A stretch of 64,000 nucleotides of DNA from Paragorgia papillata (taxonomy: Eukaryota; Cnidaria; Anthozoa; Scleralcyonacea; Coralliidae): assembly GCA_035771165.1 (NCBI GenBank), contig JAWNZC010000122.1, positions 933,001-997,000 of the forward strand, in the 5' to 3' direction. How positions within the stretch are numbered: position 1 is the stretch's first letter; every line of letters starts with the position of its first letter. The position numbers and the translations under genes were made by a program. Below the pieces are notes generated by a model that worked only from the letters and a program-made list of their open reading frames with translations, was not told the origin of the DNA and searched no databases. Of the stretch, positions 23,171-51,100 are shown piece by piece.

Positions 23171-23182
23171 AAACTTTTGAAA

Positions 23183-23206: not shown

Positions 23207-23229
23207 TTTTTACTAAAATATTTTAAAAA

Positions 23230-23628: not shown

Positions 23629-23745
23629 TTATTTAGGAAAGAGAAGTTTGGCTTTTTTTTTGCAGTTCAAATTTTTTTGGAGAGCTTACAGGATGGTTTT
23701 TTCTGTATTTTTGGGTTTTGTTAGGATCCCCAATTTTAAAAGTTT

Positions 23746-23976: not shown

Positions 23977-24034
23977 TTATTAATATATTAAAAAAAATTA
24001 TAACAAAATTTTGTTATAAGTTTTCAGAAAAGTT

Positions 24035-24274
24035 TTAGAAGATTTTTAGGATTTCAATTACTTTTACATAATTCTTTAAAGCTAATATCAGATCATTTAC
24101 AGCCACCTTTAAGTTTGTCAGGTTTTGGTTATTTTCTTTTTTTAAATCTGTTTTCAAATTTTTCATGTCTTTTAACACACCTTTAATGGTTTCCAAATTT
24201 TGATCAATCATCTTTTTTATTGTAGTCTTAAAATTTTCGAAAAGTTTTATGGAGTCTTGTAATTCTGTGGACAT
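24035..24274 (-). CDS. Small coiled-coil protein
   Basis: 79 aa, almost entirely helical heptads with Lys/Asn/Leu (KNLKTDLKKENNQNLTNLKV). Its start overlaps the 3' end of the minor capsid gene by 28 bp in a different frame, and no AATAAATG motif is present, so it may be translated from the capsid transcript. Confidence 0.6.
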   Translation of the reverse strand: MSTELQDSIKLFENFKTTIKKMIDQNLETIKGVLKDMKNLKTDLKKENNQNLTNLKVAVNDLILALKNYVKVIEILKIF

Positions 24275-24894
24275 AGAAAAATTTCAAGAAGAATGTCGCC
24301 AACATTGTGGTCAACTTTAAATTTAAGCTCATTGTAAACACCATTGTCTAACATTGCCTCAGAATTAATGTTCGCAAATTTTTCAACTGATCCCTTCAAT
24401 AATTGTCTTGTTGTAATTGGAAGAACTGCAGCTGTTCTGTCCCGTTTTCCTGAAAATGACGTCCTAGTTCCATCAATCATCTCGCAAGATATACAAACAA
24501 ATTTCATTCCAAGATTTATGTTGACTGTTTTTGGACTGACCATGTTTGCTCCTGCTCTAATTATTGTTGTTTCTGGATATCCTAGCAAAGGACCAAGTTT
24601 GTGTAGGTAAAGATCTTTTGTTGGGAATAATCTGATTTTACAGCTGTAAGGAAGTAATTCTGACTTTATTTCGTTTTCCTTTAAAACCCTCATAATCATA
24701 CCAACAGTCCAATAGCCATTGTCGAAACTAATTTTTTTTGTCCCATGCATGACATAAGTTGGACTTGTTAAATTATTGTAATCCCAAAAAACTGTTGCAT
24801 CCTTAACCATTAGTTTGGTATCTTCAATGATCAAAGGATCTTCAAATTTAATTGTTGTTTCTCCGTTTTTCAACAAAATTCTTAGGTTCCTCAT
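24247..24894 (-). CDS. Minor capsid (penton-type) protein
   Basis: 215 aa, the size and beta-rich composition of a single jelly-roll penton protein. The segment TVNINLGMKFVCISCEMIDG followed by R-T-A-VLPIT resembles Polinton minor capsid proteins (strand, then loop with basic and Pro/Ile residues). It is next to the packaging ATPase and major capsid gene, the usual Polinton order. GATAAATG is at the start. Assignment rests on context and general pattern more than on a unique motif. Confidence 0.75.
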   Translation of the reverse strand: MRNLRILLKNGETTIKFEDPLIIEDTKLMVKDATVFWDYNNLTSPTYVMHGTKKISFDNGYWTVGMIMRVLKENEIKSELLPYSCKIRLFPTKDLYLHKLGPLLGYPETTIIRAGANMVSPKTVNINLGMKFVCISCEMIDGTRTSFSGKRDRTAAVLPITTRQLLKGSVEKFANINSEAMLDNGVYNELKFKVDHNVGDILLEIFLCPQNYKTP

Positions 24895-24961
24895 TTATCT
24901 TAAAGGTTTGTTAAAGTTCAAAGTGTCATGAAAAAGACGTCGCAAAATCTTCATTAAAGCT

Positions 24962-25603
24962 TCAAAAATTTATTAAATTTTCCCCAAATGGTTCAACTAT
25001 TTTGTGGTCATAGGGGTGGATTAAATTGATCTCTAATTTTGAATATTTTTTTGATTTCAATGTTTCTTTAATTTTTTTCTCTTCCTCTTTTGGTATGTCT
25101 AAATAATCATCCAAAATAACTTGCATATCTTTTCTGTTTGGGTTGTAAAAGGTAACCAGTTTTGAAATATTTTCTCGATATGGTTTCGCAATGCTTGTCA
25201 ACTGCTGGGTTACAACTATTGTACTAATATTCATATGTCTTGCTCCAAAACCAAGTTTTACCAATTCGCTGGTCCTGTTTTTAACACTCTGTCCAGAAGC
25301 ACAGTCATCCAAAATAATTAGACTTGGGGTTCCTTTGCAATAGTCAACTACATATTTTAAGAAATCTTCTGACTCATCTTGATCGCAAGGGATAACAAAA
25401 AATCTTGGATCATGTAAATGTTCCCATTCCAAATATGTTTTGTTCCATACAAAAGTTGGACATATTAAAACTATGTTTTCAAATTTTTTTTTGTAATTTT
25501 CTTCTAAATTTTTTAGTAAGTAATGAGTCTTTCCACAACTGGTCATTCCAACAATAATTATGTTGAATGGTTTTGGGTCTTGGGTTTGATCTTGGTTTTT
25601 CAT
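24962..25603 (-). CDS. A32-like (FtsK/HerA) genome-packaging ATPase
   Basis: 213 aa. Walker A is GMTSCGKTH (residues about 18-26), Walker B is LIILDDCA (about 94-101), and TIVVTQQLTS (about 130) is the sensor Gln strand typical of the HerA/A32 clade. It is expected to drive DNA into the capsid at a portal vertex. It lies between the minor and major capsid genes; AATAAATG is at the start. Confidence 0.93.
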   Translation of the reverse strand: MKNQDQTQDPKPFNIIIVGMTSCGKTHYLLKNLEENYKKKFENIVLICPTFVWNKTYLEWEHLHDPRFFVIPCDQDESEDFLKYVVDYCKGTPSLIILDDCASGQSVKNRTSELVKLGFGARHMNISTIVVTQQLTSIAKPYRENISKLVTFYNPNRKDMQVILDDYLDIPKEEEKKIKETLKSKKYSKLEINLIHPYDHKIVEPFGENLINF

Positions 25604-25653
25604 TTATTTGAGAAAAGTTTTGCCAAGTTTTTGGGTTTGGGGTTGCCAAATTT

Positions 25654-26865
25654 TTAATAGTTGACACTCTGGAATGCTCCTCCTTGGACTTTCAATAAGC
25701 CATCTGAGAGAATGAAAACATGGCATCTGAGATCTGTTGATGTTGCTTTTTTCTTAATTTCCAACATAATCCCAGATTGTGTGGTTAAAAGTTTTGTACC
25801 ATCTCCATACACAGCATTGTCATTAATTGACCTAAGATCCACAACAAGTGCAAACTGGTTTTCTGTAAAGAATTCATCAGCTTGGATTGTTGGATAGTTG
25901 GTATGTCTGAAAAGTCGCTCAGCCTCTTCAAACAATCTTCGTTTTGGGATGCCTTGAGAGTAAATGCTATTCGGAACTCCTTCAATGGTAATTTTTACTC
26001 TTTCGATATTGGGATACACAAATTCTTCAGACCCACTTCTTGTTGCCTTTGTAAACAACATTACAACCGCCTTCATGCTCTTTCTTGGCAGATTGATGGT
26101 TTCGTTAATTAATGTTGAAGCTGCAGCCCATGGTGTGGTTTTCATTAAAGTTACATGTTCGAAGGAGAGTGCTCGACCCATTTGGTAAGAAGATTCGATT
26201 TCCTGGACCAATGAAAAGTTGGTAATGGTTTCATACTCCAACTCAATATTTTCCAAAGAATAACCAGCCACAGATTGACTACTTTGTGCTTTCATAATGG
26301 CAGTGGCTTTTGGTAGAGTAATAATGTATTGCAAGTCATTTGCCATGCTGTGGGGTGCATATAATCCATGATCCTTTAAAATCTTGTCCAACTTGATCCT
26401 CTGTTTTGTTCCATATACAGCTGCATATGTGTCGGAAGAGGCATCATCAGATTTCGAAATGAGTTTTCTTTGGTTTTCTGTTGCAATACCATCTTCAATC
26501 ATGTTGGCTCTTTCATGTTTGTCCATCCACAGATCCTTATATGTCCCCAAAAGACTCTCTCCCGTGTTGTCGTAAACTTTTTCTCCTGCAAACCTGACTT
26601 CCAAACGTTCTTGGAGTTGTTTCGCAAGGTTGTTGTTAAACCACGACTTTGTGTTTTTGTTTTTAAAGTCGAACAGGAGGAACATCTTGTCAGGAACTAA
26701 TGTTGTTCCTGGTTTGAGTTTTGGGATGTGGATGTAAATTACTTCTCCTTCATTGGCAGAATTGGGGTTGAAAGTAATTACATTTCGAGCTCGTTCCCCA
26801 GTTATTGAACTTCGGTGTAACCGGTTATAACCGGGTTCTAATTCAACTTCTCTCTCTGTATTCAT
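25654..26865 (-). CDS. Major capsid protein (double jelly-roll)
   Basis: 403 aa. Beta-rich throughout, with Polinton MCP-like features: an N-terminal IYIHIPKLKPGTTLVPD strand pair, DFKNKNTKSWFNNNLAK, and C-terminal IERVKITIEGVPNSIYSQG then NQFALVVDLRSINDN. Position beside the A32-like ATPase and the minor capsid gene is diagnostic. It would form hexons of an icosahedral shell. AATAAATG is at the start. A fold prediction would be decisive. Confidence 0.88.
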   Translation of the reverse strand: MNTEREVELEPGYNRLHRSSITGERARNVITFNPNSANEGEVIYIHIPKLKPGTTLVPDKMFLLFDFKNKNTKSWFNNNLAKQLQERLEVRFAGEKVYDNTGESLLGTYKDLWMDKHERANMIEDGIATENQRKLISKSDDASSDTYAAVYGTKQRIKLDKILKDHGLYAPHSMANDLQYIITLPKATAIMKAQSSQSVAGYSLENIELEYETITNFSLVQEIESSYQMGRALSFEHVTLMKTTPWAAASTLINETINLPRKSMKAVVMLFTKATRSGSEEFVYPNIERVKITIEGVPNSIYSQGIPKRRLFEEAERLFRHTNYPTIQADEFFTENQFALVVDLRSINDNAVYGDGTKLLTTQSGIMLEIKKKATSTDLRCHVFILSDGLLKVQGGAFQSVNY

Positions 26866-26934
26866 TTATTAATATAGGGAAAAATTTTGAAAACTTCATT
26901 TCTTTGCAGGAATGAAATTTTGGTGGAATGGGTT

Positions 26935-27225
26935 TCAATAATTATTGAAAAATTCATCTTCATTTTCCTCTTCTCCTTCAAAATCATCTGGCATCAAAAC
27001 ATCAAAATCTGCCCATAAATGATAACAATGGTTTTCATTATAATTTCTAATATCATATTTACTATACAACAACCAAAGTTTGTATCCTTCATAACTTCCC
27101 TTTGAGATTAAAAAAATAAGTTTTCCAATATTAAACCAGTTTTTACTCCCAAACACACATTCTGTTGCATAAGAGTTGACAATCATATTTATTGAATTTC
27201 TTTCCAATTGTGGAAAGAATTTCAT
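26935..27225 (-). CDS. Hypothetical acidic-tail protein
   Basis: 96 aa, with aromatic-rich central strands (KNWFNIGKLIFLISKGSYEG; YNENHCYHLWADFDVL) and a very acidic C-terminus (DDFEGEEENEDEFF). No family. The AATAAATG motif is not present before this ATG. An adenain-type protease was considered for this slot and not supported, because no Asp/Glu-Gln-Cys triad pattern is visible. Confidence 0.6.
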   Translation of the reverse strand: MKFFPQLERNSINMIVNSYATECVFGSKNWFNIGKLIFLISKGSYEGYKLWLLYSKYDIRNYNENHCYHLWADFDVLMPDDFEGEEENEDEFFNNY

Positions 27226-27305
27226 TTTAAATTTTTTGGTTACACAGATGACCCTTCGTTAGGTCCAATTTTTCTGGACAAGAATTTGGGTTTCGTTTGC
27301 CACCC

Positions 27306-27668
27306 CTAAAGATCATATTTCGAAAGATCCTTGAAAACTGTTTTCGACTTTGAAATTTTTTCATTACTCTCTTCTGGCTCTTTTTTCCATTTGGTGTAAG
27401 TAATGTAAGTGGTAGTTATAGCAGCTATTGTACCAAGAATTGCACAAAGTGTGGAAATGTTTGGACTTTGGAAAGATTCAGTGACGTCATTTTCAGCTCT
27501 TTCCTTTTCAATTTTGGCTTTTTTTCTTAGTTTTGCCTCCTTACTTATCGCAGCCAGTTTTTTACCTTGTGCGACCCTTTTGGGATTTTTAACACGGACA
27601 GGAGGAGGAGTTTTTGTAATGGTTTGTTCTGGTTTTTGTTCCAATTCTGGTTTTTGTTCTGGTTCCAT
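27306..27668 (-). CDS. Basic protein with one TM segment
   Basis: 120 aa. It starts with Glu/Lys/Gln/Pro repeats (PEQKPELEQKPEQ), then a basic patch (VRVKNPKRVAQGKKLAAISK), a single TM segment (STLCAILGTIAAITTTYITY) and a polar tail. The KNPKRVA-GKKLA patch with a nearby TM is of a kind found in other cnidarian Polintons, which is recalled and not checked. AATAAATG is at the start. Confidence 0.7.
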   Translation of the reverse strand: MEPEQKPELEQKPEQTITKTPPPVRVKNPKRVAQGKKLAAISKEAKLRKKAKIEKERAENDVTESFQSPNISTLCAILGTIAAITTTYITYTKWKKEPEESNEKISKSKTVFKDLSKYDL

Positions 27669-27736
27669 TTATTAATTTGTTATATTTTGTTTGAAAGCTA
27701 GTTAAAATTTGTTTGAAAGCTAGTTGTTAAGTTGGT

Positions 27737-28804
27737 TTAAACAGCTCTCAAATATTTTTTTAAAGTTACTGTTTGCTTTTTCCTTTTCTCTTTGGAAATT
27801 AAACTCGCGTAATGGATTATCGTTCCTAATGAAAAAGTTGTCTCAACAGGGTTTTCCCAAAATTTGTCGCACTCACTTTCGTCATATTTTTCTGGACATT
27901 TTTGGGAGAATAGGTGCCAAAGATCTTTACCATAATCTTCTCCATGGGTTTCATTGTAAAGAGCAAAACCAACAGACCTCCAAGATGTGTAATCTTCGGC
28001 AATATCTTTTGGTATCTGGTCAATATATTTTTCTAATTCTTCCTCACTCTTTTTGGTATGGTCATCAAAGTTAATAATGGTTGCATTTCTTACCTTTTGT
28101 TCAATTTCTGGAATGGGGGATATTTTGCTAACATGTGTGTATGGTTTTTGTCTAACGGATAGTAAAAATATTAGCTCATGGTCAGAATATTGACTTGCCA
28201 CATGGTCCCTTTTTTCCTCAATAATGTAACTCAAAAGATATGGGTCTGACTCGGGACTCTTTTTGGAACCATACAAAAACCAGTTTCCAGCAATGACAGC
28301 ATTGTCTAGTTGGATGGTTGTTTTTTCTTGTACAAGTTTATTTATGTACAATCTTTCCCTTTGTGTTAACCAAACATGTGGGAAATGTAGATGGAAACCA
28401 TTTTTGTAAGTTTTTCCATCATCTTTAAAATAACCTGGCTTTTCCAGAACAAAACAGTCCAAGTTTGTTTGGTCAACAAGAAATTCTTTCAATATTTTTT
28501 GGAAAAGTTTTGCCAATTTCAGGACTTTCTTTTCAGAATATAGTGGTTTTGGTTCCTTAAGTTTTTTACTAAGATCAATGTCAACAATGACAGGCCCAAT
28601 TTCTGTTGTTCTTTCCAAAAGGTATTTGTTAAAGTTTCCGGATCTTGACAAATATGTGTAGGCTTTTGTATATTTATTTAGAAGATCCTCTTCATTTTTT
28701 ACAGAATATGATCTTTTGTTGAAAATATCCATATGTGTAATGTTTTCTTTACTGAAACTTTCGTACAACAAAGACGATAAGGTGTTTGTTTTGAACTTAG
28801 ACAT
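27737..28804 (-). CDS. AEP-type primase with PriCT-2-like C-terminus
   Basis: I chose the internal ATG at 28804 (MSKFK); an upstream ATG at 28822 would add 6 residues and overlaps the fibre gene's stop. Numbering from 28822, the DxD motif is VDIDLSK (D81, D83), the second motif is NGFHLHFP (H144, H146), and the third-motif Asp lies in QLDNAVIAGNWFLYGSKK (D173). This is the herpes/pox-type archaeo-eukaryotic primase pattern. Residues about 280-350 (TSWRSVGFALYNETHGEDYG ... LGTIIHYA) resemble the PriCT-2 domain of D5-type primase-helicases. There is no helicase (Walker) part. It probably makes RNA or DNA primers or has a repair or end-processing role, an unusual partner for a protein-primed polymerase. 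Confidence 0.8.
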   Translation of the reverse strand: MSKFKTNTLSSLLYESFSKENITHMDIFNKRSYSVKNEEDLLNKYTKAYTYLSRSGNFNKYLLERTTEIGPVIVDIDLSKKLKEPKPLYSEKKVLKLAKLFQKILKEFLVDQTNLDCFVLEKPGYFKDDGKTYKNGFHLHFPHVWLTQRERLYINKLVQEKTTIQLDNAVIAGNWFLYGSKKSPESDPYLLSYIIEEKRDHVASQYSDHELIFLLSVRQKPYTHVSKISPIPEIEQKVRNATIINFDDHTKKSEEELEKYIDQIPKDIAEDYTSWRSVGFALYNETHGEDYGKDLWHLFSQKCPEKYDESECDKFWENPVETTFSLGTIIHYASLISKEKRKKQTVTLKKYLRAV

Positions 28805-28818
28805 TCTTTCTTTCTTTT

Positions 28819-30285
28819 TCAATCAATTCTAAGCAGGTTGATTTCAACATCCCAAACATTGAAAAACAGGAAGGTATAGTCATCACCAACAGAACCAGAA
28901 TATGAGTGCAAAGACATTTGGGTTCCTTTTTTAATAGTTGCAATCCCCTGACAGAAAATATGGTGGGAATGGGTTTCGTTGTATGTTTTTCCCATGGTTA
29001 TGGTTTCTAAACCCGAAAGTTTGTTTGATCTGTCTGTAACACTTCCATGGTAAAGGTTTGTTTTTAGGTCAAAATATGATCTATAGGAAGAAGCATACCA
29101 ACCAGTTTGCTTAGATTGTTGATCAATTTTGAGGCCATCAGGTTGTAGTGTAAACCAATATGAGACTAAATATTTTCCTGTATCATGGGTTGCTGTAAAT
29201 GAGAGCAGGGTGCTAACGTTATTTGTGTTATCCCATGCTCCTCCCTTATGATTTGTTTTTCCACTATCTTTTTTATATTTTACCAACTGCGAAAAAGTTC
29301 CAGCAGGTCCTGTAACCCCTGTAACACCTCTCAAACCTCTTAGACCTCTTAGTCCAGTTGATCCTTTTCCACCTGGTAGTCCTCGAACTCCTTGATCACC
29401 TTGGTCGCCTTTTGGTCCTGGATCTCCTTTGTCCCCCTTTGTTCCTTGTGGACCTTGTGGTCCTTGCGATCCTGTGGAACCTGTGGTACCTTTGGGTCCT
29501 GTTGATCCTTGGCTCCCTTGTGGGCCTTGGGCACCCTGTGGGCCTTGGGGTCCTGTTGCCCCTGTGTTGCCCTTGTTCCCTTTTGCACCATCGTCACCAG
29601 GATCTCCCTTGTCCCCTTTTTGTGCGGTTGTTCCAGCCATTCCTTTGTCTCCCTTGTCACCCTTGTCTCCTTTGGATCCCGTTGCACCTGTTGTTCCATG
29701 GTCACCTTTGTCTCCCTTTGTTCCCTGTGGTCCTGTTGCTCCTGCTGTTCCAAAGCTACCTCTGTCACCCTTTGTACCCTGTGGTCCTCTAATACCGGCA
29801 TCCCCTTTGTCTCCTTTGGTTCCTTGCAAACCTCGATCACCCTTATCCCCTTTTGGTCCTGTATTGCCAACATTTCCCTTATCCCCTTTTGGTCCTATTT
29901 TATGAGCATCTGTACCAGCCATACCTGTTAGACCCCTATCTCCTTTTGAACCTTTTGGACCTTGAGATCCTGTTAAACCTTTTAAACCTTGAGATCCTGT
30001 TGGTCCTGTTGGTCCTATTGCACCTCTGTCTCCACTGTTTCCTTTGTCACCTGTCAAACCTCTTTGCCCCTCCAAACCTTCATCTCCCTTATCCCCTTTT
30101 GAACCTTTTGGACCTTGAGATCCTGTTGGTCCTGTTGGTCCTGTTAAACCTTGGGATCCTGTTGAACCTCTGTCACCCTTGTCACCTTTTACACCTGTGT
30201 CACCTTGTGGTCCTGGTTCTCCGTCAGCACCACCTCCTCCTCCGTAAGAATAATCTGGGTCATCATATCCATAGTAATAACTCAT
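28819..30285 (-). CDS. Collagen-repeat fibre-like protein
   Basis: 488 aa. It starts MSYYYGYDDPDYSYGGGG, then has about 310 residues of nearly uninterrupted Gly-X-Y triplets rich in GDKGDR, GPTGPTG and GPQGPQG. A C-terminal beta-rich head of about 155 residues (from TFSQLVKYKK) resembles C1q/TNF-like trimeric heads in size and position. Gly-X-Y repeats with a trimerising head imply a trimeric stalk on the particle. The N-terminus MSYYYGY is shared with 30389-31213, so it is likely the capsid anchor. AATAATG context: GATAAATA precedes the ATG. Plus-strand ORFs across this gene are antisense shadows. Confidence 0.9.
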   Translation of the reverse strand: MSYYYGYDDPDYSYGGGGGADGEPGPQGDTGVKGDKGDRGSTGSQGLTGPTGPTGSQGPKGSKGDKGDEGLEGQRGLTGDKGNSGDRGAIGPTGPTGSQGLKGLTGSQGPKGSKGDRGLTGMAGTDAHKIGPKGDKGNVGNTGPKGDKGDRGLQGTKGDKGDAGIRGPQGTKGDRGSFGTAGATGPQGTKGDKGDHGTTGATGSKGDKGDKGDKGMAGTTAQKGDKGDPGDDGAKGNKGNTGATGPQGPQGAQGPQGSQGSTGPKGTTGSTGSQGPQGPQGTKGDKGDPGPKGDQGDQGVRGLPGGKGSTGLRGLRGLRGVTGVTGPAGTFSQLVKYKKDSGKTNHKGGAWDNTNNVSTLLSFTATHDTGKYLVSYWFTLQPDGLKIDQQSKQTGWYASSYRSYFDLKTNLYHGSVTDRSNKLSGLETITMGKTYNETHSHHIFCQGIATIKKGTQMSLHSYSGSVGDDYTFLFFNVWDVEINLLRID

Positions 30286-30388
30286 TATTTATCTTGGTAA
30301 AGATTTTAAAAGTTTTTGCCAAGTTTCAGGATTTGGGGTTCAAAAGTTAAAAAAAACGTCGCACATGTGTTATCTCTTGATTCAAAAC

Positions 30389-31213
30389 TCATATGAAGTT
30401 TCCATATTCCTTCATCATATCCTTATTAATTTTAACAATCTCATCTGTCAATAATGGTCCATGAACAATCTTAATCCCATAAATTTTTCCTTTTAGTTGA
30501 GTATTATTTGATGGGGTTCCAGACAATCTTTTGTTTAGAAATACAGACCCAAATGGACTACCTATATCTGCCAAATCCGATTTAAAATCTGATCCTGTCT
30601 CCTTTTTAGCATTAACGTAAACACAGGAACCAGTCCCCAACCAATGGCAGGAAATTAAGTGTTTACTAAGAATACTGTGTGGACCAACAATATCAAAAGT
30701 TTTTTTTGTGTTATCTCTTACACCACCAATTATCATTTTGGAGTAAGAGTAGGATTTAAAGCTTATATACTTGTCATAATTACCATTATCATTTCCAATA
30801 AGATAACACCAATCGTCAGGTACAGATGTGTCAACAACAGCGCAAACAACAAAAACAGAAACATCATTAAACTGCATTTCAGTGTTACAAAATAACATAT
30901 AGTTTCCTCCTGTGTTTTCAATGTAATCTTTCCCTGGACCAATGGAATCCGAACCAAATGTTGGGGCATGGGCTTTGTCATCTTGCCACAAAACAGAGTT
31001 ACCTTGTCGAGCTTGAATTAACCTTCTTTTTCCACCAACAGTTTCAAAGTGTTTACCTGCTTTTGTTATGTTAAGATCAAAAACAGTTTTGTAATTTTTT
31101 TCCACACCCAAATTTTTTCTTTTCTTTTCAAGGTCTTTAATTTTTTTGTCAATATCGGGATCATCTCCCCCCAATGATCTTCTTGGTCTACCATAACCAT
31201 AGTAATAACTCAT
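30389..31213 (-). CDS. Second fibre-like protein, lectin/LamG-like head
   Basis: 274 aa. It starts MSYYYGYGRPRRSLGG, the same 7-residue tag as the collagen fibre, then a short coiled coil (DIDKKIKDLEKKRKNLG). The remaining 220 residues look like a concanavalin/LamG-type beta sandwich, ending KGKIYGIKIVHGPLLTDEIV before a final helix (KINKDMMKEYGNF), a pattern common in LamG/pentraxin-like domains. AATAAATA precedes the ATG. A receptor-binding role is inferred from the shared anchor and head architecture. Confidence 0.75.
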   Translation of the reverse strand: MSYYYGYGRPRRSLGGDDPDIDKKIKDLEKKRKNLGVEKNYKTVFDLNITKAGKHFETVGGKRRLIQARQGNSVLWQDDKAHAPTFGSDSIGPGKDYIENTGGNYMLFCNTEMQFNDVSVFVVCAVVDTSVPDDWCYLIGNDNGNYDKYISFKSYSYSKMIIGGVRDNTKKTFDIVGPHSILSKHLISCHWLGTGSCVYVNAKKETGSDFKSDLADIGSPFGSVFLNKRLSGTPSNNTQLKGKIYGIKIVHGPLLTDEIVKINKDMMKEYGNFI

Positions 31214-31277
31214 TATTTATTTAGGGTTTCGTATCCAAAATTTTTAACATTTTTGTTAAAGATTTTAAAAATTTTTA

Positions 31278-31541
31278 TCATCTGTTTGTCTTTACTCTTT
31301 TTGTATGGCTTTTGCTATGGTCTTGTGCTTCTATTTTGGTATTAAATGTTTTGAGACAAGTTGTACACCTATTGAGCATATTGAAATTTTTTGTTATTTC
31401 ATGAGAAAACTTTAAATGTAACCTCAATGCTGTTTTGCTGTGTGTTTCAAACTTACACCCAACACTCCTACACAAATAATGGTGGCTTTCGGGACTTTGG
31501 TGGATAACATTGTTTAATTTTAATTTTGATTTTTTTACCAT
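31278..31541 (-). CDS. C2H2 zinc-finger protein
   Basis: 87 aa with two zinc fingers: CRSVGCKFETHSKTALRLHL then H about residues 24-48, and CTTCLKTFNTKIEAQDHSK then H about 59-79. Basic ends. Probably a sequence-specific DNA-binding regulator. AATAAAA precedes the ATG. Confidence 0.8.
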   Translation of the reverse strand: MVKKSKLKLNNVIHQSPESHHYLCRSVGCKFETHSKTALRLHLKFSHEITKNFNMLNRCTTCLKTFNTKIEAQDHSKSHTKRVKTNR

Positions 31542-31622
31542 TTTTATTTATGTGTTTAAAAAATTTTTAACATTTTTGTTAAAGATTTTAAAATTTTTTT
31601 GTTTATGTTTTGGAGATGTGTC

Positions 31623-31919
31623 TCAGTATTTCCATGGTGTTGTGTTGGTAAAGGTTTTTTTGTTGTATTTCTTTTTGGGTTTTTCGGGGAATTTTTTATG
31701 GTATTTTGTAGTTAGTCTTTCAATCTCTTCTTCAAGAAATATGATGTGTTGTTGATCTTCTGTTTTCTTTTTTTCAAGATCCTTAATAACGGTTGACATT
31801 TTGGTGGTTAGTCCCGTAAGAAATGTGTTTTTTTCTTCAAGTTCGGTATTTTCTTCTATGAGATTCTGGACATGTTCAACTACCATTTTGAAATTGTTAA
31901 TTGTTTCATTTGTGTTCAT
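31623..31919 (-). CDS. Coiled-coil protein
   Basis: 98 aa, a long heptad-rich helix (VEHVQNLIEENTELEEKN through IFLEEEIERLTTKY) with a basic tail (KPKKKYNKK). AATAAA lies 11 bases before the ATG. No family recognised. Confidence 0.65.
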   Translation of the reverse strand: MNTNETINNFKMVVEHVQNLIEENTELEEKNTFLTGLTTKMSTVIKDLEKKKTEDQQHIIFLEEEIERLTTKYHKKFPEKPKKKYNKKTFTNTTPWKY

Positions 31920-31958
31920 TCTTGTTCTTTTATTTTTTTATGAAAAAAATAGTTCAAT

Positions 31959-35934: not shown

Positions 35935-36265
35935 TTAGTGGAAAACCTGGACTCGAATCAGGAGACAATCGTTTTTCACGTATTGTCGATCTTGAATTGT
36001 TTCCAGATGAGCAAATTCTACGTAGCCATATCCTTTGTGGTTTCTTGGAGTCGTAGGGCGCTGGAAGGCGAGTAGGTTAGGGCTGGTAATCAACGTTTCG
36101 CTGATGTGACGTTTGTACTCATTATCGTCACTTTGGTCAAGAATGGATAAAGATATTCTGCCAGAGAACGGCCATTCCAAGGTATCATCCCACTCGGATT
36201 GCATCATGTGGACAAATAGGGAAACATGAGTGCCATAACCAGTGTCCACTCCATTAGGATTGAAC
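35935..36265 (-). CDS. TRAF: TRAF exon 8 (MATH second part, stop)
   Basis: 331 nt. It encodes [34 protein letters not shown], and [12 protein letters not shown], all TRAF-C strand motifs. Acceptor TATTTTAG. Confidence 0.93.
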
Positions 36266-38615
36266 CTAAAATACGTAGAGCGAACTCTATCAAGTTTCAT
36301 TTCTATTACTATGCATTTTTCACTCTATCTCGTTTATGAATTCGTGATAGCACTGACGTCACACTTTTCGCATGTAGATATGACGTCACTTCTACAAATA
36401 ACAACCCGCTCGTTCTGCTCGCGCGAAAATTAAAAAGGAAATGGCAGAACCACAAAACACGAGTTTTTTAAGAAACTTCTTTAACAGATACTTTAAGAGT
36501 GCAGAAAGTTTAAGTATTTATCACATTTTCACTTTTAATTTAGGATCGAAACGTTGACATTGTAAAACTTTATTCTCCTCCGCACTTTTAACTGTCATTT
36601 TGTGGTTGACGAACAAACATTTTCGTTGTTGTTAGAAGATACACCCACCTACGCATGAAACTTGATAAGAACGTTGTCAACATGGTTGCCAATTATCCAA
36701 TCAAAATTAGCTTTGATTCAAAGTTCTCAATTTCATTGGATAATCGACAATCATGATTACAACGTAATTACCAATTTCTGAACGAAAATCTTAAAGCGTA
36801 TGGGCAACAAAAACAAAAACAAAATTCCAAAAGCAAACCAATGACATGAAAATACAATCTAGCGTGTTATTTAGAGCCAAAGTATTCCAATAAAACAACT
36901 TAATTGCACTTTCAAAGTTGCTAATCTGAATCAGTATCCGCCATCTTGGATACATTTTGATATGCATGTGACGTCACAAGCTGGGTAAAGCGAAAACTTT
37001 AGTTAGCCATACTTTGATATATATATATATATATGTACGCTCCTTCACTTCGGTGTTGTTGAGCACTCTGTGAAGTTGCCGTGGGTACCTATTAGCGATA
37101 ATGCAACGCTCACTACCCTTGTGGAAGTTTGAGCACTCTGGGCCCATGCGCACTTCACGCTATCTGAATGTACTTCACCGATGCTGTCCCACACGCGGTT
37201 GTCACCGACGATCGCATGTGTATAAGTAATTGATGAAATTCATTCAGATTGTTCCAAGCTACACTGATGAGCTGTTGTACAGCGAAACACCGTGTCTGTA
37301 GATTGAACTATGTACGCTCCTTCACTTCGGTGTTGTTGAGCACTCTGTGAAGTTGCCGTGGGTACCTATTAGCGATAATGCAACGCTCACTACCCTTGTG
37401 GAAGTTTGAGCACTCTGGGCCCATGCGCACTTCACGCTATCTGAATGTATTTCACCGATGCTGTCCCACATGCGGTTGTCACCGACGATCGCATGTGTAT
37501 AAGTAATTGATGAAATTCATTCAGATTGTTCCAAGCTACACTGATGAGCTGTTGTACAGCGAAACACCGTGTCTGTAGATTGAACTATATATATATTTAT
37601 AAAATAGGTTGCGTCTTACGCACGCTGTGATTGGTCAATTACCGTGTTTATATCAGGCTATGTAAACACGGTTGTGATGTCACGGCACATTTTTTAGCCT
37701 TATTTCATAAAAGAAATAGAAAATGGATGCCCTGTGTTTATATAACCTGATGCAAACACTCGAGTGAGTTGGGATAATTCGAAAGTACTTATGTAAACCC
37801 TCGCCTACGGCTCGGGTTCACATAAACTTTCGAATTCTCCCAACTCACTCTCGTGTTTGCATCAGGCTATATAAACACGGGCGGCCATTTTCTATTTCTT
37901 AAATATATATATATATAAGTGAGTTATGGTTCACGAAATGTTAGAGAGTGCTCAATACCATATATAGATAGAGCAAAATACAAAGTATAAAGTATAGTTT
38001 TACCTTAAAGTCTTCGCTACCAGAGGTTTCACCCTAAACGGGATCATCAGGCGACTGGAAAATATCGGTTAGTGGGCTGCTTAAATGCGTTAGTTGGGGC
38101 GTGGGTGTGGGCGTCGAAACGTCCGGCGGATTCATTTGGAGCGTGGGTGTGGGCGTCGAAACGTTGCGCGCATTCCTTTGATTGTTTAGGTTGTTGATCC
38201 GAAATCTATTTTTGTGCCGACACGTCGAAACTATTTCTGATCTTTTGTTTAGTAAGAGTTGTTTGTCTGCCTTCATGATGAAAGATGCAATTTATGTTTG
38301 GACGAAAAACTTTTCATCATGAAGGCAGACAAACAACTCTTACTAAACAAAAGATCAGAAATAGTTTCGACGTGTCGGCACAAAAATAGATTTCGGATCA
38401 ACAACCTAAACAATCAAAGGAATGCGCGCAACGTTTCGACGCCCACACCCACGCTCCAAATGAATCCGCCGGACGTTTCGACGCCCACACCCACGCCCCA
38501 ACTAACGCATTTAAGCAGCCCACTAACCGATATTTTCCAGTCGCCTGATGATCCCGTTTAGGGTGAAACCTCTGGTAGCGAAGACTTTAAGGTAAAACTA
38601 TACTTTATACTTTGT

Positions 38616-38657
<42 letters not shown>

Positions 38658-38925
38658 TAGTTTATTATAGTTTATATGAGTAGTTTATTATAGTTTATAG
38701 TTTATTGTAGTTTATTGTAGATTATATGAGTAGTTTATTATAGTTTGAGCACTCTGGGCCCATGCATGCGCACTTCACGCTATCTGAATGTATTTCACCG
38801 ATGCTGTCCCACATGCGGTTGTCACCGACGATCGCATGTGTATAAGTCATTGATGAAATTCATTCAGATTGTTCCAAGCTACACTGATGAGCTGTTGTAC
38901 AGCGAAACACCGTGTCTGTAGATTG

Positions 38926-38960
<35 letters not shown>

Positions 38961-39163
38961 AAGTATAAAGTATAGTTTTACCTTAAAGTCTTCGCTACCA
39001 GAGGTTTCACCCTAAACGGGATCATCAGTCGCCTGATGATCCCGTTTAGGGTGAAACCTCTGGTAGCGAAGACTTTAAGGTAAAACTATACTTTATACTT
39101 TGTATTTTGCTCTATCTATATATGGTATTGAGCACTCTCTAACATTTCGTGAACCATAACTCA

Positions 39164-39197
<34 letters not shown>

Positions 39198-42100
39198 ACA
39201 AATAGATGACATTTTTCCGTGCGTGTGTACTGTAATAACGCACAGATGTCACAGGGTGTAAAGAACAAAAAAGTACGCCACGAGACGCAGTCGAGTGGCG
39301 TGACTGTTGTTCTTTACACGCCGTGACGTCTTCTGTGCTTTATTACAGTACACACGCACGGAAAAATGTCATCTATTTGTTTTATACATCAAATTTTATT
39401 ATTTTAATAAGAAATGTTTGATATTTTTTAATCGTCGAACCGGCAGGGCTATTGAAAAGGAGGTCAAATTTTCAATTCAGGTTTAATTACGTCATAAGTG
39501 ATCTATACAAATAAAGCAATCTGATTGGGCGACAGAAGAAATAAGGCTGTCCTGATTGGCTAATTTTTCAGCTTCCGGTTACGTCACGTATAATTTATGC
39601 AAATCATGATCATCACAAATCGATTGTGATTTACAAAATTGAAAGTTTATTCCAACTTCGTGTCTTCGTCGGCATTTCTAGCCAAAATATTTATCGTTGA
39701 ACAAACAGATTAGTTCTTCTGGAGGAGATCTTGCTGTCCCATGTATATTTGGACGCTTCTTATGCTGCAAATTCAGCTGGGAAAGCATTTATCGTTGGAG
39801 AAGGCCGAGAAGCACGCGTACTAACCAGCGAAATAATATATGTTCTGTGTTTGGAAATCTTGTTGACATTTATGGCTGATATCTCCTGGATTTGTATGGC
39901 TGAACAGTATTTCCATGAAGAGGAATGGAAATTGTATCAGAAAATTTCTGAAGCTATGGAGTAGATAGCGTTGTGCGCCGGAGACGAAGGTATTAAATGA
40001 CCGTATTTATGTCGATAATTTTAATGTCTGTCTCGTCGGACAACGACTTGATGGCCGTGTCTCTCATCACTGAGTGATATGTGTAATCCTCAGACAGTTG
40101 AAATGCACTTTATTTTGTACCAAGTTGCATCTTCAAACGTGTAATTTGATCAAATTTTAATAAAACAAAATTTTTTTGCGACTTCGTTACGTCAGCTGTG
40201 CATGTGTACTTTAATAACGCATAGTTCTTAGCCAATCAGATTGGTTGTTTTTCTTAGGTTGTTGTATATATATATATATATATATGAAAATATTTGAAAC
40301 AAATTTTTTGTAGACGATTTTCATTCTTAATTAAACCACAACACTTTAAAAACATACAATAGAAGTTCAGCTGCCAGAAGAATAAGTTTCATCATGTGAC
40401 GTCAGTTAATTAGGCAAGGTCTTACAACAAGATGGCGAACGGCAAGATTGTCTTGTCGAAATTAGTGATGTTGTTTGGCACAAGAGTTATTTTGTTTACT
40501 TGGATTACCATCGCAAGACAATCAGAAATTAAAAAATGTGTACTTGTAATTTGTGTTGCTCTTACCCTTTAAATATAAAAATCAACTGTAAAATAAATAT
40601 ACCTCAGGCAAAGCTTGTAGCCATAAAAACTGGTGTAGAATGGCGGACTGTGTATGGCAGTTGCTACTCCTTGCTGAGCATTCTCCAAATGCCGTGCATA
40701 ACCAACTATACGCCAAAGGTAAACACCATTGCACATGCGTGCCTCCAACTCCACAATACTATTCTTGTTAACTGTTGTGCCGTGGTCATTTTGCTGTCGT
40801 TCCATGCGATTGCTTTGTTCACGAAGTTTTCTTTCCACTTGCTCCATGCTGGTCTTCAGTCGATTAATAGTCTCTCCATTCTTGGCCACTTGTCGATTCA
40901 TCTCGTCAAGGGAGGATCCAGCTGATGCACCTGCTTCAGTTTTGGATGAAGCTCCTCTGGTTTTCTCTGCCTTTGTCCGGTTTTGATTGTTTGGCAGCCC
41001 GTTGTCAATTGCGGCGACAACAAAAGACAAATGAGCGGCGATGTTGCTCTGGAGATGAGCAGAGACATTTGATCGCAATCCCTAAAATAAGATGAGATAT
41101 CATTAATAATTAAATATACAATGCTAAATAGTTTTATTAAACAGAAAGGTCAAACGTTTTCGATTACATGTCATGATATTCATGAAGAAAACAAAAAGGA
41201 AATCAGTACCATGTCCGTGGTTTTATATCTGATAAAAATCCTCCTAATTCACATAAACTTTGGCTATGATTCCTCTCGGTTTAGACATCACAACGTTGTT
41301 TTTCATAATTACGCCAATAAACTTACCAAATTAGTCGGTTTTGAAGCTAATCAAAACATTCGCAATACGTGTTCCGGTATCTAATCACAAAGACTCTACT
41401 ATTGCCTCGTGTTTTAAATCTGATAAAACACTGCTGCTCATGTTTTAAATATTACAGTATAAACTATTAACAAATAACAGCCAATATCTCCCAGATTTTT
41501 CTTCATAAAAAATACCCTCCTGAGTGTGATGTTATATATCATACACGTACTGATTTCCTTTGTTTTCGGTTCATGAATTATTAATAAGTTGAGAAAGAAA
41601 ATTAAAGGGTATTGCCAATAATCATTTGAAAGAACTCGTCAAATGGTATACGAAGACCTTTTACAATTTTTCCGTATCTGTTTTGGTTTGGGAAATATTT
41701 GGACCAAAGACAGCCTGCTGTCCGCCATGGAATTATTTTCGGTATGCATGTGACATCATAACCAGGGTAAAGTGAAATTTTTATCTTGCCAACCTTATGA
41801 CATTATGAGCTAGAAACTCGATTTTGTTGCGCTATTTCCATTTTAAATTGACCCACAACATTTAAAAAGCCTTCCGTGGAAATTTGGTCACCCACGGAGT
41901 AGTTTCATCAGGTTTTCCCTGGTTGTGACGTCACCAATTTCCTAGTTAATTATAATTAGACCCAATATTACAACAAGATGGCGGACAGCACGCTGTCTTT
42001 GGTCGAAATATTTCCAAAACCAAAACAGATACGGAAAAATTGTAAAAGGTCTTCTTATACCATTTGACGAGTTCTTTCAAATGAGACAAACTTAATTTTT

Positions 42101-45100: not shown

Positions 45101-48100
45101 AATTTTGAAACTACCGTATACCACCGTACAGCCCGGCTGGTAGCCGAGCAATCGGCGGGATTTTTGACGGCTGGTAGCCGGGGAAAAGTGTGCGAATCGG
45201 GCCAAGAGCTTTACGCTTTCTGTCCGCCATTATTAAGGACTACTGATCATTACGTTTATCTTTTCAGAAACCACTTAATTAAGTTCGACGTTTGAATCTG
45301 GGCTCCTCAGGACAAGTCACGTGACCTTTCACTTCTTGAGGGTGTTCAGAGACGAGCCACGAAATTCATACTCCAAGATTATGAATCATCTTACACTGAC
45401 CGTCTCAAAAAGCTTAACTTATTACCTATATCATATTGGCTTGAAATTAAGGATCTTCTCTTCTTTTTTAAGTGTAAACAAGGTCTCTACGATCTAGATA
45501 TCTCCTGTTTTGTTACTTTTTCTTCTATCCGCTCGTCTCGCACTCGTTCAAGTCAAAACAACTTGCTTCAAGTCAATCCTTGTAGGACTTCTCTATTTAG
45601 AAATTCTTTTTTCAACAGAATTGTCTTTCTCTGGAACAATCTCTCTCCGATAGTTCGTAATAGTACTTCTGTTTCCATTTTTAAACATGAACTTTATATT
45701 CACTACTCTTCTAAGTTAGACTCCAATTTCGATGTTAATAGACTGCGCACCTGGAAAAGTTTCTGTTCTAAATGTCGCTCTTTCAATCCAAGTTGTTGCT
45801 CTTAAATCTTTATTCTTATGTAATTTGTGTATTAGTTTGTTGGGGGTTTTTTATCGTGTGTTTACTTATCGTTTATTATGTAATTTTTTTGTTGGGTTGG
45901 TCTTCACATGGGACTCGTGTCCTGCTGATCATTCCTTCAATCATGTTCAAGTATTGCACGCTTTATTTCCTGTATATTTGCATTCTTTCATGGTTGTAAA
46001 GTTAATAAATAAATAATGAATCAAGTTAGATTTAGGTCGACCTAAATAGTAAATAAGATCGGTTCATATGAAGTTCGACGTTTGAACCGGGCCTTATAGA
46101 GTGCTGCGTAGGCAGTGCCCAGGTGACAATCTTACCCAAGATCTTACAAGATCTTAATAAGATCTTGATAAGATCTTGTAAGATCTTACATAAGATCTTG
46201 CAAGATCTTTGCAAGAAATTGCAAGATCATGCAAGATCTTGCAAGATCTTATCAAGATCTTGTCAAGATCTGATCAAGAACTTGCAAAATCATTACACGT
46301 GATATACACGTGTTATAAGCCCTTGCGAGTTGAAAAGCACACAAAACTAACAAGATGCTGTCATACCTTTCAATATCTTAATTACAAGATCTTGCATAAT
46401 CTTATAAGATCTTGTAAGACCTTACAAGATCTTGCATAATCTTATAAGATATTGAAAGATCTTACAAGATCTTGCATAATCTTACAAGATCTTGCAAGAT
46501 CTCACAAGATCTTACATAATCTTACAAGATCTGACAAGATTTTGCAAGATCTTGCCTAATCTTACAAGATCTTGTGAGATGTCTTCAAGTATTAGAAGAT
46601 CTAAGGAAATAAGAATGATATCAGATTTAAGAATGATATCAGCTTGCAAGATTTATGTGAAGATCTTGCATTATTTCAGGTAAAATAAGTTACTTTGTGT
46701 TTATGAGTTATCATTTGCTTTCCAATATACATGTAAATATATAATTTTTGTAATTCAAATTAAGCAAACAAGAACTACCACATTAGTGTAAAGTTGTTTA
46801 ATAAAGAATTTTTACAATTTTCAGTTTTAATTAATAATAAGTTTTGTTTTGTTCAATGTATTAATTTTCATTTTCCTTATTTTCCTAATTTGTTTTTGGT
46901 TTTGCATCCATTCGCCGCTTGGCATCTCGGCGCTTTTGGTTGCATGCATCAATGGCCATCAATGATTTGCTGGTGAGACTTGTTGAGTTTGTCACCATAC
47001 TTGATACGAAGAACATCTACCAAATGAATGCAGAAAGAACAATATCTATTAGATAAATAAATTAAGAAACTTTTACTTTGTTTCACACTAAGTTATTATT
47101 GTTATTATTATTATTGTCAAGATTTTTCAGCACTTTTTCTAGCCTTTTTTCTTCTATACTCGGACTTGATCATTGTCATTAGATTCATTGCCGTCTGATT
47201 CTTCATCGGAAGATTCTACTTTAAGCCTTTTATATATTGAAAAAAAAAAGCTTCTTGAAAATATAGAAATAGTTCGTGGATACGTCTATCAACTTATCTG
47301 TCTAAATTTTAGTTGTTGGTGTTTATAAAACGTTTTTAGCAAAGATCAAACTTTCCGAGTGAACTGGAGAAAAATAAAAAAACTATATATTAATTAAAGT
47401 TTTTATTATACCCAGCTATCTATACATTTGGTCAGTTCACCTTATGGTTCACTCTAGAAAAACGTTACATATACTCTGTTTGTCAGTGTGTTTTTTCATT
47501 GCAGCATATTGCCACCTTTCAGTCCTATGACCTAAAGGGCCGGACACTTTGAATTACGTGGCAAACAAGACGCAATAGTTAGCAATGAGATTAAAATTCT
47601 CACTCTGTCATCAACTGTTAATAAACTGATCTCACAGCGAAAGCACACCATGTCATGGTTTAGCCCAAACGACGTCCAAAATATCTACGTTTTAGAAACA
47701 ATTTATTTGCTAATAAAACGAAAAAAATCGCTGTCGTCTAGCGTTCTTTGTGTTCTAAGCGATAAATTATCCTCAGTTAAGTCATTAATTTGTGCGGGGC
47801 GCCACGGCGCAATTCCTCTCCACGCGACATAAAAAACTATACTTAAATAATACTAGACAAGACGTTTTCTGATCAAAAGGAAATTAAATCTTTGATTCTT
47901 TCTATATATATACAAGCGGAAAACTAAAAGCAGTGTAAAGTGTCAAAAACAAAGAAGCGGAACACTGATTAAAGTGACTAATAAAAGTGACTAAAACCAA
48001 TTATAAATAGATTTTAAAATGTCAGAATAAACGCCTATAGGGATATATAAAATATTTAACTTCTTAATAATGTCACGATATTGGTACTTCAACGATATAA

Positions 48101-51100
48101 TTCACTTACAATGTAAAGGACCTATATATATGAAATAACACTGATGACGCTTTCAACATTTATCAGCAAATCATAACTACGAGCACCGTGACAGCGCGGT
48201 GAGTTCAAACGTCGCATAACGCATGGTACTATAAATTACCGATATTTCAAGACAAAGTCTGCCGTTTGAGATAGATAAAAAGGAAACATAACAAGCTTGA
48301 TCTAAGAAATACTTGTGCTTATAAAATTAAACAAAATTGATCCTGCCTTTAGTTTATTTTTTCGTACAAGTCTGCCAAATATATTACCCCGTAGGGTCAT
48401 GCATATGTGTACTATCGAAAACAAAGCAGTAAATATTTAATTTAGTTCCCTACCTTGACTTACGAGTTTCCCAGTGAATATTCTGTTCCCATGTCGAACA
48501 TCTACAGGTCCACCTATGACCAAATTCTTGGGGTCTGCCTTGATGAAATCCTCACGTGATGCTATATAAGTTCCCTCGTTCTCAAAGAATACAAAATATC
48601 ACTCTTTCATCTTTTCAGCTTCCGCCAACAAAGAAAACAGTCGTTAATGTTCCAATCATCGCAAAATCTATAACAGCGAGTTATGACGATGTTCTTAGCA
48701 GCCTTTTCTAAATAGTAATTGCCATAAAATATGAAATACTGTAACGAATAATACTTAACTTACCTACACGTGTCTTGTTTTGAAGTTGTCTTGGAATCAT
48801 GCATGTTTCAAAATTTAAAGAAAGAACACTGAACACTTCGAAGTGCGTCGATAACGATTGCCAGCAGCCAGAGAAATGATAGAGCATATGACCAGATACA
48901 GGTAGAATGTGTGAACAAACTGACGTATCATGCACTCACGTGATTCACATGGCAAACCAATAGGCAAACTTATAACTCACCGCCGACCACGTGGTATATG
49001 ATCACACGCATGGCACCGAAAAAGGTTTGCGATATCATGTCAAATTTGTTTGAAATTCAAACGTTTTATATCAATCGAATTGAAATATCAGTAGACAAAT
49101 ACTTAATAAAATAATATCCAGTTTGTGCGAGGAATTTTTTTGTCACAGTCCTCAGCCTCCAGGGATCTCATCGCGCAAATACAAACTTCCAATATCCGTT
49201 AGTGTTTGACAGATTTTCTTCCACACCTTTCCGTCCCTTTTTAAAACCGGTGGAGGTCGGTGCAAGCCAAAAGATAGTGTATGTAGATTCGGAAAACAGC
49301 TTAACAGATATACCACAAACACCTATTAAATATCTTGAAGCATTCGATGTTATTACTACAGTATAGTATATCAAGTGAATTTTACAATGATGTATTAAAA
49401 ACCCAGATATACCGTATCTTATAAGAATTTACAAGATTTCACAAGATTTTACAAGATCAGACAAGAGTGAACAGAAGATCCTATAAGATCTTACAAGATC
49501 TTACACAAGATCTTATAAGATCTTACAAGATTGAACACAAAATCTTGTAAGATCTTGTAGGCTTTTATAAGATCTTGTAAGATTTTTTTAACATCTCGTC
49601 AAAGTTTTTTTTCTATATAATCTGTATAAAGGACAACACAATCAGATGTTACAAAAAATCTAAAATATAAACCTACATACGGTGACCAGTTTGAAATCTT
49701 ACATTTCAAAAACAGTTGTTCTAAACTTCTTTAAAAACATCTTATAAGATCTTACAAGATCTGATATAAGATTTATTTTACTCAAATTACATAAATTTGT
49801 AAAATCTTATAAGATCTTACAAGATTTTTCTTATAAGATTTTATCATAAGATCTTGCAAGATTTTACAAGATCTTGTAAGATCTTGGCAAGATTTATCTT
49901 ATAAGATGCTTTAATAAGATCTTACAAGATCTTACAAGATCTTACAAGATCTTACAAGATCTCGCAAGATCTTGACAAGATTGTCACCTGGGCATGTTTT
50001 AGATAGAGCAAAGTGGAATGATAGAGAACTTTGAAGAAAGAGCACTTTGCTCTATCTAAAAGTATAAGATAGTTCTGAGATGATAGTTATAGTTTGTAGT
50101 ATAAGATAGTTCTGTAGTATAATATGAGTTTGTAGTATAAGATGCACCTTTTCACTTTGCTCTATCTTATACTACAAACTCATATTAACTTCCATGCACA
50201 CTGTTATTTTCAAGGAGTAGTTTAAATTCGGGTGAACGGATTAGATTAACTCCTTCAGGGTGGGTTATTTTACATAAGTTGTTTTAACTCCATTTATTGG
50301 GTTATAATAGCTCCAACGGAGGGTTTGTTTAAAACAGTCATGTTGCTAGGTATTTAAATTCACAATTGTATTAAAGTTTCAACTAGCAGTTTATTAAAAT
50401 TTAGGTAAAAGGATCGAAAAAATTGACAACCAAGCTTTCGGACTAAACGTCCATCATCAGGGTTAGAAGATTAATAAATTTAACAAGTCAAGAAGGAATA
50501 CATACGCTAATACAAAAGAACTAACTACAAAAGAATGCTAATGAACTAGAAGTTACTATCGCAAGTGAAGTGCTGCCTCATAAAAACGGCGTGCCACGCG
50601 GTTTACTTTAAAACAACATATTTTATTAGAATACCCTACTGTACTTATAGAACAAACTACCACAGGACTTAAGAACTTCGAATTCTACTCCTTCGTCGTT
50701 TACCAGAAATTGTAAACAGATTATAAGACTAAGATTTTCGACCCCAATAGGCCACGTGTAAATTGGACAATTTAGTGTATGTATAATTTGTTGGGTTTTT
50801 TTAAATTTTATTTACATGTATTTATTTTATTTTATTATCTTTTTTTTTTTTTAATTTTATTTTGTTATTATTCATGGTGGACTAGCTAGTATGGTTCCTT
50901 TGTTGCTTTCTGGTCCTTCCCCACTGCATTTATCTAATTCTTTATTTATTTATTATTTATTTATTTATTTATTATTTATTTATTTTTATTTGTTAACATT
51001 TGTACGCAGTGAAAATGGATTAAATTAAATTAAATTATAAATTAAAACCTTGAGCGTACTCCACAGGCAACTCTGTGCAGTCTGTGGCTCAAGTAACACC

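Follow-up and report, generated by a model that had tools for sequence, protein, structure and literature searches.

Introduction

Metazoan (non-LTR) retrozymes have been described from Acropora millepora, jellyfish and sea anemones as non-coding units of about 170–400 nt that occur as anything from dimers to long arrays, carry type I hammerhead ribozymes (HHRs) with a weak helix III, have a GC content below 50% and form highly self-paired monomers, in genomes that also contain Penelope-like elements (PLEs) (PMC7229834, PMC7761336). Most of the published circles are predicted to form the ribozyme, and PLEs have been named as a strong candidate for mobilisation of these elements (PMC7229834). 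A 2020 review, in the portion available, describes metazoan retrozymes as having no conserved motif from which an autonomous partner could be deduced (PMC7761336). Animal retrozymes give rise to abundant small circular RNAs, and the enzyme that returns these to DNA is an open question.

The enzyme of a lizard PLE cuts AT-rich DNA by preference and copies unprocessed RNA; reverse transcription starts internally, at 111–118 of its frame (the HHR cut is at 26), and the start site is described in the available portion of that study as not homologous to the cut DNA (PMC11167929). PLEs also form palindromic pLTR copies, and a host gene has been moved in trans by pLTRs (PMC3846280). Plant LTR retrozymes have hammerhead repeats in common with the animal elements, and circular RNA has been published for them (PMC4918200); their HHRs are of type III. 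Here we analyse a hammerhead repeat in a 64-kb stretch of the Paragorgia papillata genome, together with its copies in the same assembly. The whole of this stretch is referred to below as the window.

Results and Discussion

A tandem retrozyme in a TRAF intron

Tandem Repeats Finder reports a repeat of period 277 at 37032–37588 (2.0 copies, 99% match), and alignment of the two units (Table 1) identifies differences at 2 of 277 positions (37173/37450 and 37194/37471, both C versus T). This confirms the exact 277-bp tandem of two units claimed in an earlier, sequence-only reading of the window. The third partial tandem unit that it also described is absent; the third HHR (core at 38884–38916) sits in a separate truncated copy, 1.15 kb downstream of the dimer, that has the same 3′ end and then runs into (TA)n. 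The placement of the dimer inside a TRAF intron, antisense to the gene, was borne out. The MATH exon on one side has 69 homologues, of which a single one carries an organism name; it is from the octocoral Paramuricea clavata (76% identity), in keeping with a cnidarian host. The frame with the upstream exon matches MATH_2 over profile positions 2–37 with 25.2 bits, which is below the curated Pfam cut-off of 32. Foldback MITE-like elements at 37600–37913 and 39200–39390 adjoin (TA)n tracts of the same intron.

Table 1. Features of the retrozyme dimer, the host gene and the neighbouring PLE composite, in window positions.
Feature	Position	Strand	Basis
Retrozyme unit 1 (277 bp)	37035..37311	+	Tandem Repeats Finder, alignment
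Retrozyme unit 2 (277 bp)	37312..37588	+	Tandem Repeats Finder; 2 differences vs unit 1
(TA)n tract, 5′ edge of dimer	37017..37034	.	sequence
(TA)n tract, 3′ edge of dimer	37586..37596	.	sequence
Separate 5′-truncated retrozyme copy	38742..38931	+	blastn, 97.4% over 190 bp
Type I hammerhead ribozyme 1	37251..37308	+	descriptor; predicted cleavage after C37296
Type I hammerhead ribozyme 2	37528..37585	+	descriptor; predicted cleavage after C37573
Type I hammerhead ribozyme 3, in truncated copy	38871..38928	+	descriptor
Hairpin a, unit 1 (GCTC...TTGAGCACTCT)	37039..37069	+	pattern, fold
Hairpin b, unit 1	37108..37139	+	pattern, fold
Hairpin a, unit 2	37316..37346	+	pattern, fold
Hairpin b, unit 2	37385..37416	+	pattern, fold
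PLE-1 tail hairpin GCTCTATC...GGTATTGAGCACTCT, then (TA)n	39109..39138	+	pattern, fold
PLE-1 tail hairpin, inverted copy, then (TA)n	37945..37974	-	pattern
Palindromic composite, probable PLE, 141-bp identical inverted ends	37917..39166	.	self-comparison, repeat search
Open frame resembling PLE endonuclease C-terminus (putative), 101 aa	38256..38561	+	homologues
PLE hammerhead-like motif	38545..38577	+	relaxed descriptor; U.U at stem II base, cleavage predicted after A
PLE hammerhead-like motif	39033..39065	+	relaxed descriptor
PLE hammerhead-like motif	38018..38050	-	relaxed descriptor
PLE hammerhead core only, stem I lost at palindrome	39005..39028	-	missed by descriptor
TRAF MATH exon, one side of intron	35935..36324	-	Pfam TRAF-mep_MATH, E 1.3e-34
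Open frame with upstream TRAF exon: coiled coil and MATH start	40569..41081	-	MATH_2, E 2e-5

A coding role for the unit was considered and rejected, the longest stop-free stretches around the 277-nt circle being 51 codons on the plus strand and 64 on the minus strand. The unit has a GC content of 47%, the circle is 71% paired in its predicted fold, and the fold of the linear monomer has a z of -4.7. By its anatomy the element is a metazoan (non-LTR) retrozyme of the known kind. Its size, tandem layout, type I HHR, GC content, fold and dispersed copies all support the original suggestion of a tandem hammerhead repeat of the retrozyme kind, and match the metazoan elements described above. Hammerhead repeats, and a circular RNA stage that is supposed here, are features in common with the plant LTR retrozymes; it differs from them in its type I HHR and in the simple head-to-tail arrangement of its units within TA tracts.

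Hammerhead ribozymes

The HHR occupies unit positions 217–274, with a predicted cut after 262. It consists of stem I (GTTC...CTACA / TGTAG...GAAC), the core CTGATGA, stem II (GCTGT-TGT-ACAGC), GAAA and stem III (ACA-CCG-TGT), with cleavage predicted after the C of GTGTC. We assign it to type I because loops cap stems II and III, which leaves stem I as the open one. A strict descriptor (the core plus at least 3 bp in stem II, 3 bp in stem III and 4 bp in stem I) found exactly three sites on both strands of the window, compared to a mean of 0.08 and a maximum of 1 in 100 dinucleotide shuffles. The cores in the dimer lie at 37264–37296 and 37541–37573, and the descriptor result agrees with the complete core and the cleavage sites that had been read from the sequence. 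The description of three perfectly paired stems holds in part: all of the stems are present, but stem III is only 3 bp long with a 3-nt loop, and stem I is interrupted by an internal loop that separates CTACA/TGTAG from GTTC/GAAC.

The sequence-only reading had proposed an Infernal search and had named a lack of hits as grounds for refutation. At the Rfam gathering cut-offs there were no hammerhead matches in the 64-kb window, and a search of a 2-kb piece gave no hammerhead at E ≤ 1. The best match on a 91-nt piece was Hammerhead_HH9 (18.3 bits, E 0.015, cut-off 52), followed by the RAGATH-1 hammerhead (16.3 bits). Formally, the gathering-level result is the outcome that had been named as refuting. 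As the HHR core is complete and is kept in copies, we read the Rfam miss as a gap in the models. An exact HHR pattern had no matches in viral contigs.

For the isolated HHR, the best predicted fold (-10.8) is lower in energy than the HHR fold (-8.8). The minimum-energy structure predicted for the circle does not include ribozyme stems I and III. The predicted circle differs in this respect from most of those published (PMC7229834). The predicted self-cleavage would release a 277-nt, possibly circular RNA.

There are 102 complete HHR regions among the copies (duplicates included), and 51 of these are identical to the HHR of the window. The core layout, scored as a pattern without a stem check, is kept in 80 of the 102; 20 of the 22 regions with a broken layout lie in C312, C1 and C316, and outside of these three the layout is kept in 29 of 31 (duplicates included). 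In C82, which has diverged, 54 of 58 columns are kept within the HHR, compared to 94 of 142 outside of it; the block AGTTTGAGCACTCTG is likewise kept there.

Most copies share a fixed 3′ end in TA repeats

The search for further copies suggested in the sequence-only reading was made in the P. papillata assembly itself (617.9 Mb, 473 contigs), where the dimer has at least 36 matches, so that dispersed copies do exist. The loci of all 36 matches were searched again with one unit (E ≤ 1e-6) and neighbouring matches were merged, giving 33 records; matches with E above 1e-6, and those shorter than 150 nt with less than 75.5% identity, were dropped before counting. Removal of three duplicates with identical flanks (C179b and C427, duplicates of C179a, and C229, a duplicate of C321) left 30 records. 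The 3′ end is visible in 28. Some records from the same contig (C1, C9, C14, C178, C447) are perhaps not independent.

In 23 of the 28 records the 3′ end falls at unit position 276–277 (ATTGAACTAT, or shorter by one base), 15 nt beyond the predicted cleavage site. A (TA)≥4 run lies within 20 nt of the 3′ end in 23 of 28, and 22 of 28 have both the fixed end and the adjoining run. As a background, (TA)≥4 runs account for 0.44% of the window; in eight 3-kb stretches chosen at arbitrary places they cover 24 of 24,000 nt. The 5′ starts are scattered from unit position 1 to 239, and (TA)≥4 is present at the 5′ edge of 16 of 30 records. Where (TA)n occurs on both sides (12 of 28), a target-site duplication longer than 4 bp is indistinguishable from the microsatellite.

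The six exceptions are of several kinds. The C116 copy has an internal rearrangement, yet the end GATTGAACTATATA follows; C321 (like its duplicate C229) has the correct 3′ end without (TA)n; C178:798724 and C9:1043946 are fragments; and C1:426437 and C316 are in sequence rich in small indels, perhaps poorly assembled. At 424–433 kb of C1, retrozyme arrays full of small indels lie beside clean units, which may reflect a problem of assembly quality. Arrays also occur in C447 (about six units) and in C312, where about 50 units stand in a row over at least 13,987 bp, with repeated blocks. Boundaries between units read GAACTATGTACGC (TATGTA), whereas the 3′ edge reads GAACTATATATA (TATATA).

These counts give good support to a fixed 3′ end in TA microsatellites, which appears to be new for retrozymes: in the portions of the open-licence literature available, we did not find a (TA)n target with a single fixed 3′ end and 5′ truncation, or a duplicated PLE-like hairpin, reported for them. 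The combination of a fixed 3′ end and ragged 5′ ends points to target-primed reverse transcription.

Penelope-like neighbours

The truncated copy lies inside the inner (TA)n of a palindromic composite (37917–39166) that also has (TA)n on both sides. Its hammerhead-like motifs and pLTR-like palindromic or inverted copies are as expected of a PLE, and the order of a hammerhead-like motif followed by a tail, with inverted palindromic copies, fits published PLEs with hammerheads (PMC11167929, PMC3846280). The sole stop-to-stop frame of at least 100 aa in the composite, at 38256–38561, is a fragment, and we did not find a reverse transcriptase there. This frame has 14 homologues at E ≤ 1e-3 among 90 candidates. 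Several have a YIG...R...H stretch, which we take to resemble the GIY-YIG nuclease of PLEs. The frame has no Pfam match, and a search of PDB profiles with PLE C-termini returned none; a low-confidence AlphaFold model of an endonuclease homologue (pLDDT 53.8, strand/helix order EEHHEH) was not used as proof. The composite is probably a PLE, as judged from the homologues and from a motif recognized by eye.

An inverted repeat at 38095–38500, with perfect arms of 189 bp around a 28-nt loop, is the source of false matches to microRNA families in Rfam; the MIR matches at about 38166–38431 arise from it and were rejected as microRNAs. Elsewhere in the window (52211–52684, minus strand), a frame with GVVYSIPC...YMDG resembles a broken PLE endonuclease by eye, with no Pfam match.

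Other PLE-like tails were recognized near retrozyme copies. In a second kind (C149, C65, C447), the tail GCTCTATCTTTACGGTATTGAGCACTTT follows or accompanies another hammerhead-like motif (by eye). The hammerhead-like motif of this kind, CTGAAGATCGCCCAGCGTGAAAC, is seen in C236 and its tail in C149, both beside retrozyme copies. A third tail, GCTCTACCTACTAGGTATTGAGCACTCT (C1:431748–431775), is 425 nt beyond the end of a hAT transposase frame (Pfam 7.4e-11), which makes it the least sure of the tails. We considered that it could be part of the hAT element and set this aside; it is kept as PLE-like, with less certainty, because the two are separated by a (TA)n tract and by a hammerhead-like core in inverted orientation (the latter by eye).

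Seven of the eight tail hairpins run into (TA)≥4 within 3–38 nt; that of C178 does not. The distance from tail to retrozyme is 32–178 nt at C447, C149, C178, C65 and in the window, and 460 nt at C1; this proximity is not an enrichment test, as the loci outside of the window were chosen around retrozymes and supply six of the eight tails.

A hairpin shared by the retrozyme and PLE-like tails

Downstream of its HHR, the PLE-1 tail forms the hairpin GCTC-TATC-N7-GGTA-TT-GAGC-ACTCT. The retrozyme unit holds this layout twice, as GCTC-N18-GAGCACTCT and GCTC-N19-GAGCACTCT, both framed by ACGCTC...TTGAGCACTCT. The pattern GCTCN{13,23}GAGCACTYT has six matches in the window, all in the retrozyme or PLE tails, and none in 100 shuffles; over 138.5 kb (the 64-kb window and the loci) every match is a retrozyme or PLE-like tail, and there are none in 24 kb from elsewhere in the genome. 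These figures are only indicative, since the pattern was composed after the retrozyme and the PLE had been viewed. The PLE hairpin pattern had no exact matches in viral contigs.

With the motif taken as given, 151 and 96 of 5000 shuffles yield a GCTC at the right distance upstream of it, for the two hairpins of the retrozyme. The retrozyme and PLE-1 have an 11-base core in common, a length reached in 47 of 1000 shuffles and, taken alone, modest evidence; local alignment of the PLE-1 tail to the retrozyme is not significant (143 of 1000 shuffles). The GCTC/GAGC stem forms in all five forms that were folded. In stability the tail hairpins surpass most shuffles (an equally good fold in 7, 9 and 1 of 200), which is not so for the retrozyme hairpins (48 and 87 of 200). 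In the PLE-1 tail the hairpin is 5′ of the start of reverse transcription, whereas in the retrozyme it is 3′ of the start.

We consider the shared hairpin a candidate motif for recognition of the autonomous partner, on the basis of sequence comparison. At 50040 on the plus strand, GAGCACTTTGCTCTATC adjoins GATAGAGC, as PLE tail blocks in rearranged order, near CAAGATCTTA-type repeats.

Mechanism and alternative explanations

Our overall reading, which we regard as probable, is of a non-coding 277-bp metazoan retrozyme that inserts by target-primed reverse transcription into (TA)n, most likely using a PLE enzyme by way of the hairpin. The plus-strand transcript would cut itself after C37296 and C37573 to release a 277-nt monomer, which, by analogy with published retrozymes, may be re-ligated into a circle. 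A reverse transcriptase would be primed at nicked (TA)n and begin copying at the GAAC/UAUGUA boundary. At the 3′ edge, TA of the target stands in place of TATGTA, as would result from a (TA)n primer that paired with UAUGUA and was then extended into GAAC. A start 12–15 nt 3′ of the cleavage site implies that the template spans that site, and is thus uncleaved or circular RNA. The position of the 3′ end, 15 nt beyond the predicted cut, therefore bears on whether the circle is the template. Copying more than one turn of the circle would give dimers, with two full turns yielding an exact one, and an early stop would give 5′-truncated copies.

Recruitment of the PLE enzyme may be through the RNA hairpin common to the retrozyme and PLE tails. 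More specifically, the retrozyme could hijack a (TA)n-targeting PLE through GCUC...GAGCACUYU, a mark of PLE tails that it displays twice per unit; we offer this version tentatively, at not quite an even chance. Some SINEs have tails that mimic a partner LINE. The retrozyme would likewise be non-autonomous and share an RNA hairpin with its partner, although with a PLE in the place of the LINE and with the hairpin near the HHR. An AT-rich target and, under this model, an internal start of reverse transcription are common to PLEs with hammerheads and the retrozyme (PMC11167929, PMC3846280). The retrozyme differs from the PLE in being non-coding and in its HHR, of which stem II is paired throughout and stem I is longer. 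Its 3′ end is 12–15 nt past the HHR cut, whereas the PLE-1 tail extends to 101 nt past it. The model also proposes annealing of TA, whereas the lizard start site is described, in the portion available, as without homology to its target (PMC11167929).

If the PLE reading is correct, the hairpin would be the first cis-acting motif to link animal retrozymes to an autonomous partner, and integral-turn copies of circular RNA would be inserted into TA microsatellites. The fixed 3′ end in TA repeats and the hairpin in resident PLE-like tails would together offer a concrete partner and start site.

A true retrozyme could instead be moved by another autonomous element, e.g., a LINE with a TA-preferring endonuclease, with the shared motif due to coincidence or common descent. 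Target-primed reverse transcription is indicated by the fixed 3′ end, the truncated 5′ ends and the (TA)n, which are silent on the enzyme; a frame at 45296–45805 resembles a LINE tail (by eye; no Pfam match), and the 15-bp target duplications of Nematostella repeats have been called LINE-like (PMC4918200). We nevertheless think another mobilizer somewhat unlikely, given that the hairpin layout is common to PLE-like tails and occurs twice per unit, and that the retrozyme and PLE both sit in (TA)n and both bear type I HHR-like motifs. Another explanation takes the hairpin with its GAGCACTYT block as a shared DNA element, such as a promoter or factor site, and not as an RNA recognition signal. 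PLE pLTRs contain a putative promoter (PMC3846280), the block sits in a pLTR-like tail, and the retrozyme hairpins are not unusually stable. Against this, GCTC/GAGC pairing is kept in every folded form, and the upper stem of the tail changes from T.G to C-G with pairing kept, a weak argument from five forms only. A purely DNA-level role is about as doubtful as a different mobilizer.

Two further alternatives concern the retrozyme itself. The element could be a decayed retrozyme in which the ribozyme no longer cuts and the DNA anatomy alone is left, as the best predicted folds and the 22 broken core layouts might suggest. The better conservation of the HHR than of the remainder of C82, and the near-universal core layout outside of C312, C1 and C316, make this quite unlikely. 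An ordinary hammerhead satellite could also spread by unequal crossing-over and by recombination between TA tracts, without reverse transcription; TA tracts recombine readily, and the C312 array with its repeated blocks has the look of such a satellite. The many sites at which 5′-truncated copies share a single fixed 3′ end, and the difference between the internal TATGTA and the terminal TATATA, argue against this and leave the satellite explanation very improbable.

Other features of the window

A Polinton/Maverick-like region (12811–31937) has a long polymerase-like frame, integrase-, ATPase- and capsid-like frames and collagen-like repeats, as recognized by eye; a Pfam search with the capsid-like frame gave no match. 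The minus strand at 54893–59167 resembles, by eye, a Gypsy-type LTR retrotransposon, with pol-like and gag-like frames that are long and open. Also present are diverged arrays of short palindromic ATCTTACAAGATCTTG-type repeats (46137–46574 and 49416–49981) and about 26 copies of the 19-bp unit CCACCCGAGTTTGCCCACT (51122–51609).
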